DNA of 64,000 nucleotides from Nitrososphaerota archaeon (GTDB taxonomy: Archaea > Thermoproteota > Nitrososphaeria > Nitrososphaerales > Nitrosopumilaceae): NCBI GenBank assembly GCA_026708305.1, contig JAPOVD010000009.1, positions 43,992-107,991 of the forward strand. Reading direction: 5' to 3'. The notes under the pieces are model-generated. The model searched no databases and was not told where the DNA came from. It worked only from the letters and a program-made list of their open reading frames with translations. Positions 510 to 56,823 of the stretch are shown one piece after another (within the stretch, counting starts at the first letter, position 1; every line of letters starts with the position of its first letter). The position numbers were made by a program, and so were the translations under genes.

Positions 510-1151
510 TTATTTAATTTGTTTCCAGTCAGAAAGGAACCTATCAAGGCCAGCTAAAGTCAAATTATGATTAAGCATCTTTTCTAAAATTGATGGCGGC
601 ATAGTTACTGCATCTGCACCTATTTTTGCAGCATCAATAACATGCATAGGATGTCTTACACTGGCTACCAGAATTTGTGTATCATAGTCATAATTTTGAA
701 AAATTTGTTTGATCTCAGCAATTATATTCATTCCATCATTTCCTATGTCATCTAGTCTACCTATAAACGGACTAACATATTTTGCCCCACATTTTGCTGC
801 AAGTATAGCTTGATTTGGAGAGAAAACCAAAGTTATATTAACTGGGATCTTATCATTACTCAAGGTTTTACACGCCATAAGTCCATCAGCTGTCATTGGA
901 CATTTTACAACTATGTTATCTCCATAATTTCTTAGCTTATGTCCTTCTTTTACCATTTCAGAATATGTAGTATTAATTACTTCTAAGCTTATATCACCTT
1001 TGACAATACTAGATATTGTTTTCATGATATCATGTGGGTTTCCATCTTCTTTTGAAAGCAGAGTTGGGTTGGTGGTTACTCCATCTATTAAACCTAAATC
1101 ATTATAAAATTTTATTGATTTTATATTGGCAGTGTCTAAAAATATTTTCAT
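510..1151 (-). CDS. tal: Transaldolase / fructose-6-phosphate aldolase family (MipB/TalC type)
   Basis: This 213-residue TIM-barrel aldolase is the size of the small TalC/MipB transaldolases. They carry out dihydroxyacetone or glyceraldehyde transfer in the non-oxidative pentose phosphate pathway. Visible motifs are MKIFLDTAN at the N terminus, DGVTTNPTLL, the VVKCPMT segment holding the Schiff-base lysine, NITLVFSPNQA and YVSPFIGRLDD. It is the last gene of a three-gene leftward operon and overlaps tktC by 4 bases, so translation is probably coupled. The context favours transaldolase over fructose-6-phosphate aldolase, because both transketolase subunits and an epimerase are encoded upstream. 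Sequence alone does not separate those two activities. Confidence 0.93.
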   Translation of the reverse strand: MKIFLDTANIKSIKFYNDLGLIDGVTTNPTLLSKEDGNPHDIMKTISSIVKGDISLEVINTTYSEMVKEGHKLRNYGDNIVVKCPMTADGLMACKTLSNDKIPVNITLVFSPNQAILAAKCGAKYVSPFIGRLDDIGNDGMNIIAEIKQIFQNYDYDTQILVASVRHPMHVIDAAKIGADAVTMPPSILEKMLNHNLTLAGLDRFLSDWKQIK

Positions 1152-2116
1152 TTTCGTACCTCTTTCACTTTACTTGCGATATCATTTGAAGTCAACTTAT
1201 GTTTTTTAAATAATAATGGCATTTCATGATCTCGTACAGATTCACCAAACTGATCTTTTATACCTATTCTTCTAATTGGTACTGGGTATGTATCAGCAAT
1301 TATTTCACATATTGCTGAACCCATACCTGCCATGGTGTTGTGTTCTTCGCATGTTATAATCAATCCAGTTTCACGAGCAGCCTTTTCTAATATTTTTTCG
1401 TCTAATGGTTTTATTGAAAACATATCAATAATTCTACAGGAAATGCCATCTTTTTGTAACAATCTAGCTGCATCCAATGCCATTTTTACCATTATCCCAC
1501 AAGCAGCTATTGTACAATCAGTACCATCACGTAAAGTTATTCCTTTACCTATTAAAAATTTTTGCGAATTGTTATAGATGATAGGAGTTTTCGATCTAGA
1601 CATTCTCATATAAAACGGCCCATATTTTTTAGACATTATATATGTAAGTTCAGAAACAGAGATGGAATCAGCAGGTATTAGGACTCTCATGTTAGGTATT
1701 GTTCTCATTATTGCAATATCTTCTAATTGTTGATGAGAACCTCCATCAGCTCCCACAGAAATACCACCATGAGAAACTACCAATTTTACATTCAAGCCTT
1801 TCTTTTTGTCACGAGAAGGATAAGCTATGGCATTTCGAATTTGGTCTACACATCTACCTGGAACAAATATTGCATATGTACTTGCAAATACAACTTTACC
1901 TGCATTAGATAATCCAGCTGCTATGGATACCAAATTAGCTTCAGCAATTCCAACATTAAAAAATCGATCTTGGAATATTTTTCCAAATGATGATATTTTT
2001 AATGAATTTGTAGTATCAGCTCCAACAACCACAATTTTTTTATTGGATTTTCCTAATTTTATTAACATGTTTCCATATGCAGTACGCATATCAGTTAATT
2101 TTGTGTTCATATTCAC
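1148..2116 (-). CDS. tktB: Transketolase, C-terminal subunit
   Basis: The 322-residue protein carries the pyrimidine-binding and C-terminal domains of a split transketolase. With the N-terminal subunit it forms the thiamine-diphosphate enzyme that moves two-carbon ketol units between sugars. Recognisable segments are RTAYGNMLIKLGKSN, the FFNVGIAEANLVSIAAGLS stretch that contains the catalytic glutamate, FASTYAIFV and VSHGGISVGADGGSHQ. The C-terminal part (about residues 195-320) carries IIDMFSIKPLD and a TCEEHNT-type segment. It overlaps the upstream fused gene by 4 bases and the downstream transaldolase by 4 bases, so the three genes form one compact operon. Split transketolases are usual in archaea. 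Confidence 0.95.
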   Translation of the reverse strand: MNMNTKLTDMRTAYGNMLIKLGKSNKKIVVVGADTTNSLKISSFGKIFQDRFFNVGIAEANLVSIAAGLSNAGKVVFASTYAIFVPGRCVDQIRNAIAYPSRDKKKGLNVKLVVSHGGISVGADGGSHQQLEDIAIMRTIPNMRVLIPADSISVSELTYIMSKKYGPFYMRMSRSKTPIIYNNSQKFLIGKGITLRDGTDCTIAACGIMVKMALDAARLLQKDGISCRIIDMFSIKPLDEKILEKAARETGLIITCEEHNTMAGMGSAICEIIADTYPVPIRRIGIKDQFGESVRDHEMPLLFKKHKLTSNDIASKVKEVRK

Positions 2117-3753
2117 AAATACCTCAGATCAGTAGCTATGTTGTTAAGCAAAGTGGTTTTTTCTTCATTGTGAAGGTTAATCCATTTAGTAACAAGATCT
2201 TTACCACCAATGCTATTTGCCTTAGACAAGAGTAAATTTTGGATTGTGTTAAAAATTATGTTTTTAAATTCTAAAATTGCATTTTTTACACTAGTTTGCC
2301 CCATGATCGCATTACCACCAACAAATACTCTAGCACCGTCAATAAAACATTGTCTTAAATTTGCATTACAAATTCCACCGTCTGCTTCAATATATCCACC
2401 AAATTTATGTTTACTAAGTAATTTTATGATCTTTTGAGTTTTAGAATGTGTGGATTCTATGTATTTTTGTCCTGATTTACCAGGGAATACAGACATTATG
2501 ACTAATTGATTTATAGTTGGTAAAAACTTATAAGACCATTTAGGAAGTTGCGTGTCGGGATTAATGGCCAACCCTATTCCCACGTTATTGTTTATTAATA
2601 TATCATGGATTTCTCCAAAAGATGATTCATTACATGATTCTGCATGTACACTTATTATATCACTTCCAGCATCTATGTACTTTTTCATATGCGTCAATGG
2701 GTTTGATATCATCAAATGTACATCAAAAGGCAAAGTTGTGATTTTTCTTAATTCCTTTATTTTTTTAAAATCAAACGTTTTATTTTTAACAAAAATTCCA
2801 TCCATTACATCAAGATGTATGCAATCAGCCTTAGCATCTTTACAAGCTTTAATTTTATGTTCTAAATCAATAGAACTTCCAGCAATTATTGACGGTGAAA
2901 TCATAAATTGCGATTCTAATTCCGTACTAATAATAGGTAGAAATTCATGTTTAGGAGCTTGACCATGCCAATTTGGATTTTGTTCCATATGTTTTATTCC
3001 TTTTCCTTTTATTGTATGTGCTATTATTATAGTAGGAGCATTCTTAGTTTTCTTGGATTCTTTTATCGCTTTGTCTATTTGTTCAATTTTATGTCCATCT
3101 ATGTCGATCACATTCCATCCAAATGATCTCCATTTGTCAGATACAGTATAGGTTTTGTTATTATTTTTTGAATGTATGTCTAGTGGCATTACATCTTCAG
3201 TTTGTGAGTCTTGTTGAACATAATTTCTATCTAATATCACAGTAATATTGTCAATTTGATACTTAGTTGCTGTCATTGCAGCTTCCCAAATTTGTCCTTC
3301 ATTAGATTCACCATCTCCAATAATGGTATAAATATGACGATCAGAATTATCTATTTTGGCTGCTAACGCGTCTCCTATTGAAAAAGATAATCCAATTCCT
3401 AAAGAGCCACCACAAAATTCAACTCCTGGACATTTTAGATCTGGATGGCCTTGTAATATACTACCAAATTTACGAAATGTATGTAGTTGTGAAGTTTTAA
3501 AGTATCCCATAATAGCTAAGTAAGAAAATAATCCTGGCGATCCATGTCCTTTAGAAAGAATTAATTTATCGCGTTTGTTCCAATAAGGTTTTTTTGGATC
3601 ATATTTGATATGATTATGAAATAAACATCCAAGAATTTCAACCATAGATAATGATCCTCCAGGATGTCCAGACCCTGCGTCAGAGATGCAGCTTACAATT
3701 AATTTACGTGCTTCTAACGCAGTCTTTTTTATCAAATAATAGTTTTTTGTCAC
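2113..3753 (-). CDS. Fusion: transketolase N-terminal subunit + ribulose-phosphate 3-epimerase
   Basis: One 546-codon frame joins two enzymes. Residues 1 to about 280 are the thiamine-diphosphate-binding transketolase subunit, with GSGHPGGSLS (27-36), SKGHGSPGLFSYLA (67-80), the cofactor motif GDGESNEGQ (146-154) and HTIKGKG. From about residue 284 the frame continues as a ribulose-phosphate 3-epimerase barrel: ISPSIIAGSS, CIHLDVMDGIF (metal and catalytic Asp), DVHLMISNP, MSVFPGKSGQKYI, EADGGI and GARVFVGGNAIM. A tail of about 40 residues after the barrel is not assigned. No stop or frameshift is visible at the junction. The fused enzyme would supply xylulose-5-phosphate directly to the transketolase half. 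It is first in the operon, ahead of tktB and tal. Confidence 0.93.
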   Translation of the reverse strand: MTKNYYLIKKTALEARKLIVSCISDAGSGHPGGSLSMVEILGCLFHNHIKYDPKKPYWNKRDKLILSKGHGSPGLFSYLAIMGYFKTSQLHTFRKFGSILQGHPDLKCPGVEFCGGSLGIGLSFSIGDALAAKIDNSDRHIYTIIGDGESNEGQIWEAAMTATKYQIDNITVILDRNYVQQDSQTEDVMPLDIHSKNNNKTYTVSDKWRSFGWNVIDIDGHKIEQIDKAIKESKKTKNAPTIIIAHTIKGKGIKHMEQNPNWHGQAPKHEFLPIISTELESQFMISPSIIAGSSIDLEHKIKACKDAKADCIHLDVMDGIFVKNKTFDFKKIKELRKITTLPFDVHLMISNPLTHMKKYIDAGSDIISVHAESCNESSFGEIHDILINNNVGIGLAINPDTQLPKWSYKFLPTINQLVIMSVFPGKSGQKYIESTHSKTQKIIKLLSKHKFGGYIEADGGICNANLRQCFIDGARVFVGGNAIMGQTSVKNAILEFKNIIFNTIQNLLLSKANSIGGKDLVTKWINLHNEEKTTLLNNIATDLRYL

Positions 3754-3957: not shown

Positions 3958-5427
3958 ATGAAAATAACAGAACAAGTTGAAGATCCATTTCGTAAACAAA
4001 CTAATGCACTATGTTATTTTATTAATATTAATGAAAATCCAAAATGGCTTGTTAATATACATGGACGTTTAGCAGAAACACTAAAGCAAATAATAAAAAA
4101 TACAGAATGGAATGAAGGTGAAATAAGAATCATAAATACTCATGGATTAATTATAGCAGATAGAATAATACTAGTAGGGTTAGGAAACAAAAAAAAGTTA
4201 AAATCAGATACTGTTAGAAATACGTCTGGCAAATTAGTTAAAGAAATACAACATATTGGGTTAAATGAATATACTGTAATAATACCAGAAGATTTTAATG
4301 AAATACTAATTCAATCTGTTGTAGAAGGTGCAGAACTGTCTACATATAATTTTAACAAATATAAAACTAATAAAAAAAAGATTCCAGAATTATTCATTTT
4401 AGGGCATAACAAAAATATCAATACCATCATAGACAAAGCAAAAAAAATAAACAGCGGTGTTATATTTGCTAGAGATATTGCAAATTTGCCTCCTAATGAT
4501 TGTACTCCATCCACAATGGCAAAAATTTCTGAAACATTAACTAATGATAAACTAAAATGCAGAATTTTATCTAAAAACTATATAAAAAAACAAAATCTGA
4601 ATGGCATAATGTCAGTAGGAATGGGAAGTAAAAATGAACCTAAATTAATTTTTTTGGAATATAATTTAAAGAAGAATAGAAAACCCATAATCATAATTGG
4701 AAAAGCTGTTACTTTTGATACTGGAGGCATATCACTTAAACCAAGTGAAAAATTAGATGAGATGAAATTTGACAAGTGTGGCGGTTGTGTTGTTTTAGGA
4801 ATAATGAAATCAGTTTCTGAATTAGAACTGCCAATAAGCATAGTAGGAGTAATACCGACAGTGGAAAATATGCCAGGCGGAAGTTCATACAGACCTGGAG
4901 ATATTATAAAAATGTATAATGGCAAAATGGCAGAAATCATTAATACTGATGCTGAGGGACGATTAATTTTATCAGATGCAATATCATATAGTGAAAAAAA
5001 ATATTCTCCAAATTCAATAATTGATTTTGCTACTTTGACTGGCGCATGCATAGTTGCATTAGGTACTAATGTTGCAGGATTTGTTGCAAATGATTCATAT
5101 CTAGCAACAAAATTAAATGAATCTGCAGAAAGAAGTGATGAAGATATATGGAGATTACCTCTTAATGACGATTACATGAATATGATAAAATCAGATATTG
5201 CAGACATTAAAAATACTGGACCAAAGGGATCTGCAGGGACAATAACTGCCGCTGCATTTTTAGCATATTCAATAAGTAATAATACACCATGGGCCCATGT
5301 TGATATTGCTGGGACAGCATGGACACAACCTTCAACGAAATGCAGATCATATAACTCAAAAGGCGCTACTGGATTTGGAGTTAGATTAATGATTGATTAT
5401 TTAATTAATACAGAAGTAAAGAATTGA
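3958..5427 (+). CDS. pepA: Leucyl aminopeptidase, M17 family
   Basis: This 489-residue cytosolic metallopeptidase removes N-terminal amino acids from peptides. The catalytic domain is clear. GKAVTFDTGGISLKP (248-262) carries the metal-binding and catalytic lysine region, MKFDKCGG (269-276) follows, and the family signature NTDAEGRL (329-336) holds the metal ligands and the catalytic arginine. The N-terminal 160 residues are the less conserved regulatory domain. Length matches the bacterial enzymes (about 500). The ATG at 3958 follows a TATA box at a sensible distance. It is transcribed away from the transketolase operon and ends just before an unusual C10T11 tract. Confidence 0.95.
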   Translation: MKITEQVEDPFRKQTNALCYFININENPKWLVNIHGRLAETLKQIIKNTEWNEGEIRIINTHGLIIADRIILVGLGNKKKLKSDTVRNTSGKLVKEIQHIGLNEYTVIIPEDFNEILIQSVVEGAELSTYNFNKYKTNKKKIPELFILGHNKNINTIIDKAKKINSGVIFARDIANLPPNDCTPSTMAKISETLTNDKLKCRILSKNYIKKQNLNGIMSVGMGSKNEPKLIFLEYNLKKNRKPIIIIGKAVTFDTGGISLKPSEKLDEMKFDKCGGCVVLGIMKSVSELELPISIVGVIPTVENMPGGSSYRPGDIIKMYNGKMAEIINTDAEGRLILSDAISYSEKKYSPNSIIDFATLTGACIVALGTNVAGFVANDSYLATKLNESAERSDEDIWRLPLNDDYMNMIKSDIADIKNTGPKGSAGTITAAAFLAYSISNNTPWAHVDIAGTAWTQPSTKCRSYNSKGATGFGVRLMIDYLINTEVKN

Positions 5428-5438
5428 CGTGACCTATT

Positions 5439-5459
5439 CCCCCCCCCCTTTTTTTTTTT
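5439..5459 (+). terminator. C10-T11 homopolymer tract, probable pepA terminator
   Basis: Ten C residues (5439-5448) run directly into eleven T residues (5449-5459), twelve bases after the pepA stop. Archaeal RNA polymerase terminates at oligo-T on the coding strand, so the T11 run is a good terminator for pepA. The adjoining C10 run is very unusual in a genome this A+T rich. On the other strand the tract lies immediately downstream of the 5S rRNA as A11G10, which does not resemble a terminator. The exact lengths may be uncertain because such runs are hard to sequence. Confidence 0.6.
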
Positions 5460-5471
5460 GTGTCATGGTTA

Positions 5472-5587
5472 ATGCCAGCACTATTGCTTCCCAAGGGCTC
5501 TCGCACCTAAGTAACACAATAGCGACAATAGGTTTGACTTCCAGGTTCGGAATGGGACTGGGTCGCACCCTATTGCTATGACCGGCT
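5472..5587 (-). rRNA. rrf: 5S ribosomal RNA
   Basis: Read on the minus strand, the sequence starts with GCCGGUCAUAGCAA, continues through the conserved CCCAUUCCGAACCUGGAAGU loop region, and ends with CUGGC. The ends pair as helix I, and the size (about 115-120 bases) is right. No 16S or 23S rRNA is adjacent, so this is an unlinked 5S gene, which occurs in many Thaumarchaeota. The ends are set from the helix I pairing and could be off by a few bases. Confidence 0.93.
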
Positions 5588-5672
5588 TAATTAAAAGTAG
5601 ACATGATGTTCTATTAATGTAACTGATATACTATCTCCAAGAATTATAAATCAGAAATATTCAATATATCCT

Positions 5673-56147: not shown

Positions 56148-56823
56148 TTCTTTTGTTGATGCGTTAACAAACATATCAAAAGATGCATTAAAATTTATCA
56201 CAAATGATTCAATTATCGCTTTAGGTAGTGGTAATGCAGCAACCATATTCACTAAAACATTATCAAAATTTGTAAACACGAGCAAAATTAGAATAAAAAT
56301 AATTCCTACATCATTACAAATAAAATTAATTATTGAAAAAAACCCTGAGGCGCAGCTTATGGAATCAAGTTATCTAAATGAGGTAGATATTATGTTTGAT
56401 GGAGCAGATCAAATAGATAGTCAAAAAAATTTAGTAAAAGGTGGTGGTGGCGCATTACTAAGAGAAAACATATTGATGAACATGGCTAAAAAAGTTATTA
56501 TCATTGCAGATAGTTCTAAATTTGTTAACAAATTGAATACAAATATACCAATAGAGATTCATCAATCAGCTAGAGAATATGTCATAAAGAAATTAATCGA
56601 AATAAAAGGCGCACCATTACTTCGTGTTGCGGCAAAAGGATATCCTGTAATAACAGAAAACGGAAACATAATAATAGATTGTAATTTTGATGAAATAGAT
56701 AATCCACAAAAACTTTCGAAAGAAATAATTAGCATAGCTGGAGTATTAGAAGTAGGTATTTTTAAGAAAAAACCAGATGTTATATATAAAGCTAATCTAG
56801 ATGGGAGTTTTGATATTCTGTAA
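56140..56823 (+). CDS. rpiA: Ribose-5-phosphate isomerase A
   Basis: RpiA interconverts ribose-5-phosphate and ribulose-5-phosphate. The 227-residue protein has IIALGSGNAATIFTK, the DGADQIDSQKNLVKGGGGALLREN block with the catalytic and phosphate-binding residues, and IADSSKFVNKL. It probably starts with the TTG at 56140, which overlaps the upstream gene by 8 bases. Together with the fused epimerase and transketolase at 2-4 kb it completes the pentose phosphate interconversions. Its 3' end overlaps the convergent amidohydrolase by 32 bases. Confidence 0.95.
   Translation: MNNSFVDALTNISKDALKFITNDSIIALGSGNAATIFTKTLSKFVNTSKIRIKIIPTSLQIKLIIEKNPEAQLMESSYLNEVDIMFDGADQIDSQKNLVKGGGGALLRENILMNMAKKVIIIADSSKFVNKLNTNIPIEIHQSAREYVIKKLIEIKGAPLLRVAAKGYPVITENGNIIIDCNFDEIDNPQKLSKEIISIAGVLEVGIFKKKPDVIYKANLDGSFDIL

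Follow-up and report, generated by a model that had tools for sequence, protein, structure and literature searches.

Does a single gene of a Nitrososphaerota archaeon encode both the N-terminal half of a transketolase and a ribulose-phosphate 3-epimerase, and would both parts be active? The question arises from the 64,000-nucleotide stretch of DNA analysed here (the window, to which positions refer unless the contig is named). On its minus strand a frame of 546 amino acids runs from a GTG start to a TGA stop (3753 to 2113) with no internal stop, as a sequence-only reading of this DNA had claimed. That reading had named a stop or frameshift near 2900 as evidence against a fusion; none is present in the assembled sequence here or in the fused relatives. 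Pfam places Transketolase_N (PF00456) at residues 13–269 (E=3.5e-48, 164.7 bits against a cut-off of 22) and Ribul_P_3_epim (PF00834) at residues 285–483 (E=9.5e-46, 156.1 bits against 21.1), close to the barrel start proposed at about residue 284, and NCBIfam concurs on both domains. The observation of a transketolase-half/epimerase fusion in one gene is confirmed. Our preferred reading, to which we give a probability of about 0.88, is that the product would serve the non-oxidative pentose phosphate pathway as a bifunctional subunit with two active domains, and that the fusion arose once by loss of a stop codon and gained its C-terminal tail alongside. The main features are as follows.

2113–3753, minus strand: fused gene, transketolase N-half and ribulose-phosphate 3-epimerase (ORF, Pfam/NCBIfam, full-length homologues)
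2947–3717, minus strand: transketolase N-terminal (thiamine diphosphate, PP) domain, residues 13–269 (PF00456, fold match to 6yak_AAA, invariant residues)
2305–2901, minus strand: ribulose-phosphate 3-epimerase barrel, residues 285–483 (PF00834, fold match to 2fli, invariant residues)
1148–2116, minus strand: transketolase C-half, pyrimidine and C-terminal domains, GTG start (PF02779, PF02780)
510–1151, minus strand: transaldolase/fructose-6-phosphate aldolase family (fsa_talC_mipB), FSA/TAL-type (TIGR00875, PF00923)

The fused gene heads a tight operon in which the C-half and then the transaldolase each overlap the preceding gene by 4 bp. Both had been predicted as operon partners, and Pfam and NCBIfam confirm them on the same strand. 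The presumed catalytic Glu of the C-half lies in a VGIAEAN motif, and the transaldolase matches TIGR00875 with 290.7 bits (cut-off 245.95).

Distribution and origin of the fusion

The fusion is already known from a survey published in 2024, in which a fusion of the Tkt N-terminus to Rpe (cluster 341.1; Padalko et al., 2024; PMC11237513) is reported for 73 of 98 assemblies of Thaumarchaeota. The present gene has the same two domains in the same order in the same archaeal group, with the N-half first in one frame and amoA in the genome, and is a further example of this thaumarchaeal fusion. As far as its account of this cluster goes, the survey counts assemblies; our modest additions concern the fusion's single origin, its ancestral operon, the tail linked to it and the likely direction of flux. 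A literature search of open-licence papers turned up no biochemical or other experimental work on the fused protein.

The search covered 101 relatives and was then widened to 400 genomes from the order and 398 from the phylum. Among these, full-length uninterrupted matches were confined to two families, f1 and f8, which correspond, by the named loci that share their clades, to Nitrosopumilus, Nitrosopelagicus, Nitrosotalea and kin (f1) and to Nitrososphaera, Nitrosocosmicus and Nitrosopolaris (f8). Congeners carry the fused gene at 76–77% identity over its whole length. Proteins spanning both halves, for which the sequence-only reading had proposed a database search, are the rule in these two ammonia-oxidizer families, and the genes are split elsewhere: no fusion was present outside f1 and f8 among the 398 genomes sampled across the phylum, nor in other lineages among the 80 best loci of a named-genome scan, where the loci from other lineages were split. 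The fusion belongs to the normal gene set of two large archaeal families and is ordinary for the lineage; nothing in it overturns known biology. It provides a usable rare genomic change that sets the Nitrosopumilaceae and Nitrososphaeraceae lineages apart from amoA-bearing families with split genes.

Two such amoA-bearing families, f2 and f3, encode the N-half, the epimerase, the C-half and the transaldolase separately and in this order, all in one orientation. The same arrangement is found in f9 and f10, in whose listed genomes amoA gave no match. Genes, order and orientation of this unfused operon are those of the fused one, but its epimerase is a gene of its own and has no tail. Apparent fusions in f9 and f10, each visible as one long match, were rejected, since every case checked proved to be two neighbouring genes separated by an in-frame stop. 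The epimerase of f14 is located elsewhere. In f72, which lies outside the order, the N-half is directly followed by an epimerase gene (G696:C34:54631-56099 and G675:C13:34876-36344), so that the adjacency of the two genes may predate the order.

For the origin of the fusion we used a tree of the C-half, the independently encoded neighbour of the fused gene. A branch with support 99/97 sets the 59 fused rows apart from the others, and one change is required; a quick tree of the N-half and the epimerase gave the same single fused clade. Together with a junction of the same length in 60 of 61 loci, this makes a single fusion event likely. It would have taken place in an ancestor shared by the Nitrosopumilaceae and Nitrososphaeraceae lineages, where loss of a stop codon would have joined two genes already adjacent in an operon of N-half, epimerase, C-half and transaldolase, and the helical tail would have been gained together with the fusion. 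One locus labelled Nitrososphaeraceae (L057, JAICOU010000003.1) falls within the Nitrosopumilus-type group in both trees and is probably a mislabelled bin.

Junction and C-terminal tail

Two further segments of the fused protein were delimited.

2887–2970, minus strand: junction from WHG to PSI, residues 262–289 (28-residue spacing; ends of separate N-halves compared)
2116–2289, minus strand: C-terminal tail, residues 489–546, with helices at 489–525 (long) and 530–542

The junction is essentially linker-free: barrel strand 1 follows directly on the C-terminal helix of the N-half. The WHG-to-PSI distance is 28 residues in all fused loci except the one in which the motif search gave no match. 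In the closest relatives without the fusion, the separate N-halves stop about 20 residues past WHG, and the short C-terminal helix of stand-alone N-halves is retained in the fused proteins ahead of barrel strand 1. Because this terminal segment still precedes the barrel, the fusion looks end-to-end and not like an insertion. For the same reason we rejected the tail as a displaced C-terminus of the N-half; nor does it, by eye, resemble a leftover of the N-terminus of the C-half.

The sequence-only reading had described a tail of 40 residues as a curiosity of this gene. It is instead about 50–58 residues long and occurs in every fused relative examined. Counted from the equivalent of residue 488, 49–61 residues (median 59) follow the barrel in fused proteins, compared with 14–38 (median 19) in 23 separate epimerases; in this sample all fused epimerases have the tail and the separate ones lack it. 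AlphaFold2 predicts both tail helices at high confidence, and its model of the fused protein (pLDDT 92.9, pTM 0.92 overall) suggests a fixed arrangement of the domains. The tail segment aligns throughout f1, and less strongly with f8. It evolves faster than either domain, with a within-genus dN of 0.20–0.27 compared with 0.07–0.12 for the N-half and 0.10–0.16 for the barrel (dS near or above 1). Tail and fusion have an equal distribution in the sample and may share one cause, and a tail seen only with the fusion poses a specific structural question.

Two ideas about what the fusion does bear on this question. It may represent neutral compaction of the operon, such that both domains are active and the join does nothing but fix their stoichiometry at 1:1, with neither channelling nor regulation. 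The genes were adjacent and ordered before the fusion, and the fusion is limited to a single clade, both of which fit neutral compaction; the long retention in two large families and a tail conserved only with the fusion hint instead at structural integration. We rate neutral compaction a little short of an even chance. If tethering brings a benefit, the tail could be an assembly clamp that holds the barrel to the transketolase core, and the fused protein and the C-half would then form a defined multi-enzyme particle that hands xylulose-5-phosphate directly from one active site to the other. We consider this proposal improbable.

Conservation of both domains

Our preferred reading, with or without such a benefit, requires two active domains. 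Both halves had been called complete-looking, and each is complete by profile with its catalytic residues kept. The transketolase motifs claimed at residues 27–36, 67–80 and 146–154 are in place as SGHPGGSLS (28–36), SKGHGSPGLFSYLA (67–80) and GDGESNEGQ (146–154). In 34 fused proteins aligned with one another, the PP-domain motifs GHPGG, SKGH, LQGHP, GDGE..N and WHG are invariant, as are H30, K68, H70, H103, D147, G148, E149, N177 and H263. These residues match the ligands of TPP and metal and the substrate histidines of transketolase, with roles assigned from the active-site description of the Carboxydothermus enzyme (PMC7661550). The split transketolase of Carboxydothermus hydrogenoformans is active as an alpha2beta2 assembly (PMC7661550), and its N-subunit, 6yak, is the closest solved N-half by sequence (E=1.4e-73); Foldseek matches the N-half part of our model to 6yak_AAA with a TM of 0.90 on the target. 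Both transketolases consist of two chains, but the Carboxydothermus N-half stands alone, without an epimerase. The present enzyme is likewise of the split type, with PF00456 above its cut-off and the C-half coded separately by the next gene, and no further PF00456 match that could be a second N-half was found in the 95%-complete genome. By analogy, the N-half would be a working transketolase subunit once paired with the C-half.

In the barrel, S288, H313, D315, H346, M348, D458, G459 and G460 are invariant in the same alignment. We take positions 288, 313, 315, 346, 348 and 458–460 to be the Ser of the epimerase SPSI motif, the two metal-binding His, the two catalytic Asp, the Met of HLM and the glycines of DGG; these roles were assigned partly from general knowledge of epimerases. 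The closest solved epimerase by sequence is plant 1rpx (E=9e-35), and the barrel part of the model matches 2fli with a TM of 0.93 on the target. The stand-alone epimerases 1rpx, 2fli and 1tqj have the barrel and the catalytic residues in common with the fused protein but are unfused, lack the long helical tail and carry a loop of the SVNPGFGGQ type. The fused barrel has SVFPGKSGQ at this loop, and its kinetics may therefore differ. All of the 50 best Foldseek matches listed were transketolases or epimerases, and no chain among them combined both domains. The epimerase half exceeds NF004076 (184 versus 165 bits) and stays below the curated cut-off of the equivalog TIGR01163 (165.1 versus 212.6 bits), which makes its exact substrate less certain but not its family; judged by PF00834, NF004076 and the residues, it is a divergent archaeal form.

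An independent full epimerase elsewhere, with degeneration of the C-terminal half, had been named as counter-evidence; genome search and residue alignment revealed neither. No second epimerase was found in the 95%-complete genome, although one could lie in the unassembled part. The one other PF00834 match (19 bits, sub-threshold) was rejected as tryptophan synthase alpha, TrpA beside TrpB. The barrel would act as a ribulose-5-phosphate 3-epimerase.

A genuine fusion with one domain reduced to a non-catalytic scaffold would fit the departures of some barrel loops from classical epimerases (PGKSGQ versus PGFGGQ). However, every catalytic or metal residue inspected, in either domain, is invariant, and the genome searches revealed no further gene for either activity. 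Both domains also look to be under purifying selection, dN being well below dS in ratios that are indicative, as dS is near saturation. We regard a scaffold role as very improbable, and the fused gene very probably works. An artefact, in which a missed stop or indel merged adjacent genes during sequencing or assembly, can be dismissed: the f9 and f10 pairs are adjacent, some in compatible frames that read through with 1–2 stops, so that a single error could join such a pair, but independent genomes with the same frame and junction spacing were found (60 of 61 fused loci, in many assemblies including single-contig genomes), congeners matching over the whole length among them.

Probable pathway role and genome context

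A further gene of the pathway and one RNA gene lie in the window.

56299–56802, plus strand: ribose-5-phosphate isomerase A (RpiA) domain (PF06026, E=2.3e-49)
5470–5589, minus strand: 5S rRNA gene

The RpiA domain (100290–100793 on the contig) completes the non-oxidative pentose phosphate pathway. Searches for G6PDH, 6PGDH and hexulose-phosphate synthase (HPS), all of which gave matches in control genomes, found none in the 95%-complete genome. With RpiA present and neither an oxidative branch nor HPS found, the non-oxidative pathway is likely the sole pentose route in the genome. The fusion points to this pathway as the source of pentoses and erythrose-4-phosphate in globally abundant autotrophs.

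The sequence-only reading had the two activities consecutive in the pathway, which holds, and the epimerase supplying xylulose-5-phosphate as the transketolase donor, which is probably the wrong way round. Since no oxidative pentose pathway was found, we infer a net flux from fructose-6-phosphate and glyceraldehyde-3-phosphate to pentoses, in which transketolase probably yields xylulose-5-phosphate and the epimerase consumes it toward ribulose-5-phosphate and ribose-5-phosphate. We suggest that the N-terminal domain pairs with the separately coded C-half to give a split transketolase of the alpha2beta2 type. Fructose-6-phosphate and glyceraldehyde-3-phosphate would enter and xylulose-5-phosphate would be released; the tethered barrel, as the cell's presumed sole ribulose-5-phosphate 3-epimerase, would convert it to ribulose-5-phosphate, from which RpiA would form ribose-5-phosphate.

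Upstream of the fused gene lies a divergent leucyl aminopeptidase gene (M17, 3958–5427), an arrangement common to many f1 and f8 genomes. Homopolymers at 5438–5460 (about 10 C, then about 11 T), between the aminopeptidase end (5427) and the 5S rRNA gene, are a possible assembly-sensitive spot. The genome (837 kb, 95% complete, archaeal amoA present) and those of two congeners (about 800 kb) are far smaller than those of most well-assembled family relatives, typically 1.1–2.0 Mb. A small genome that keeps amoA and the full non-oxidative pentose pathway suggests a strongly reduced ammonia oxidizer.
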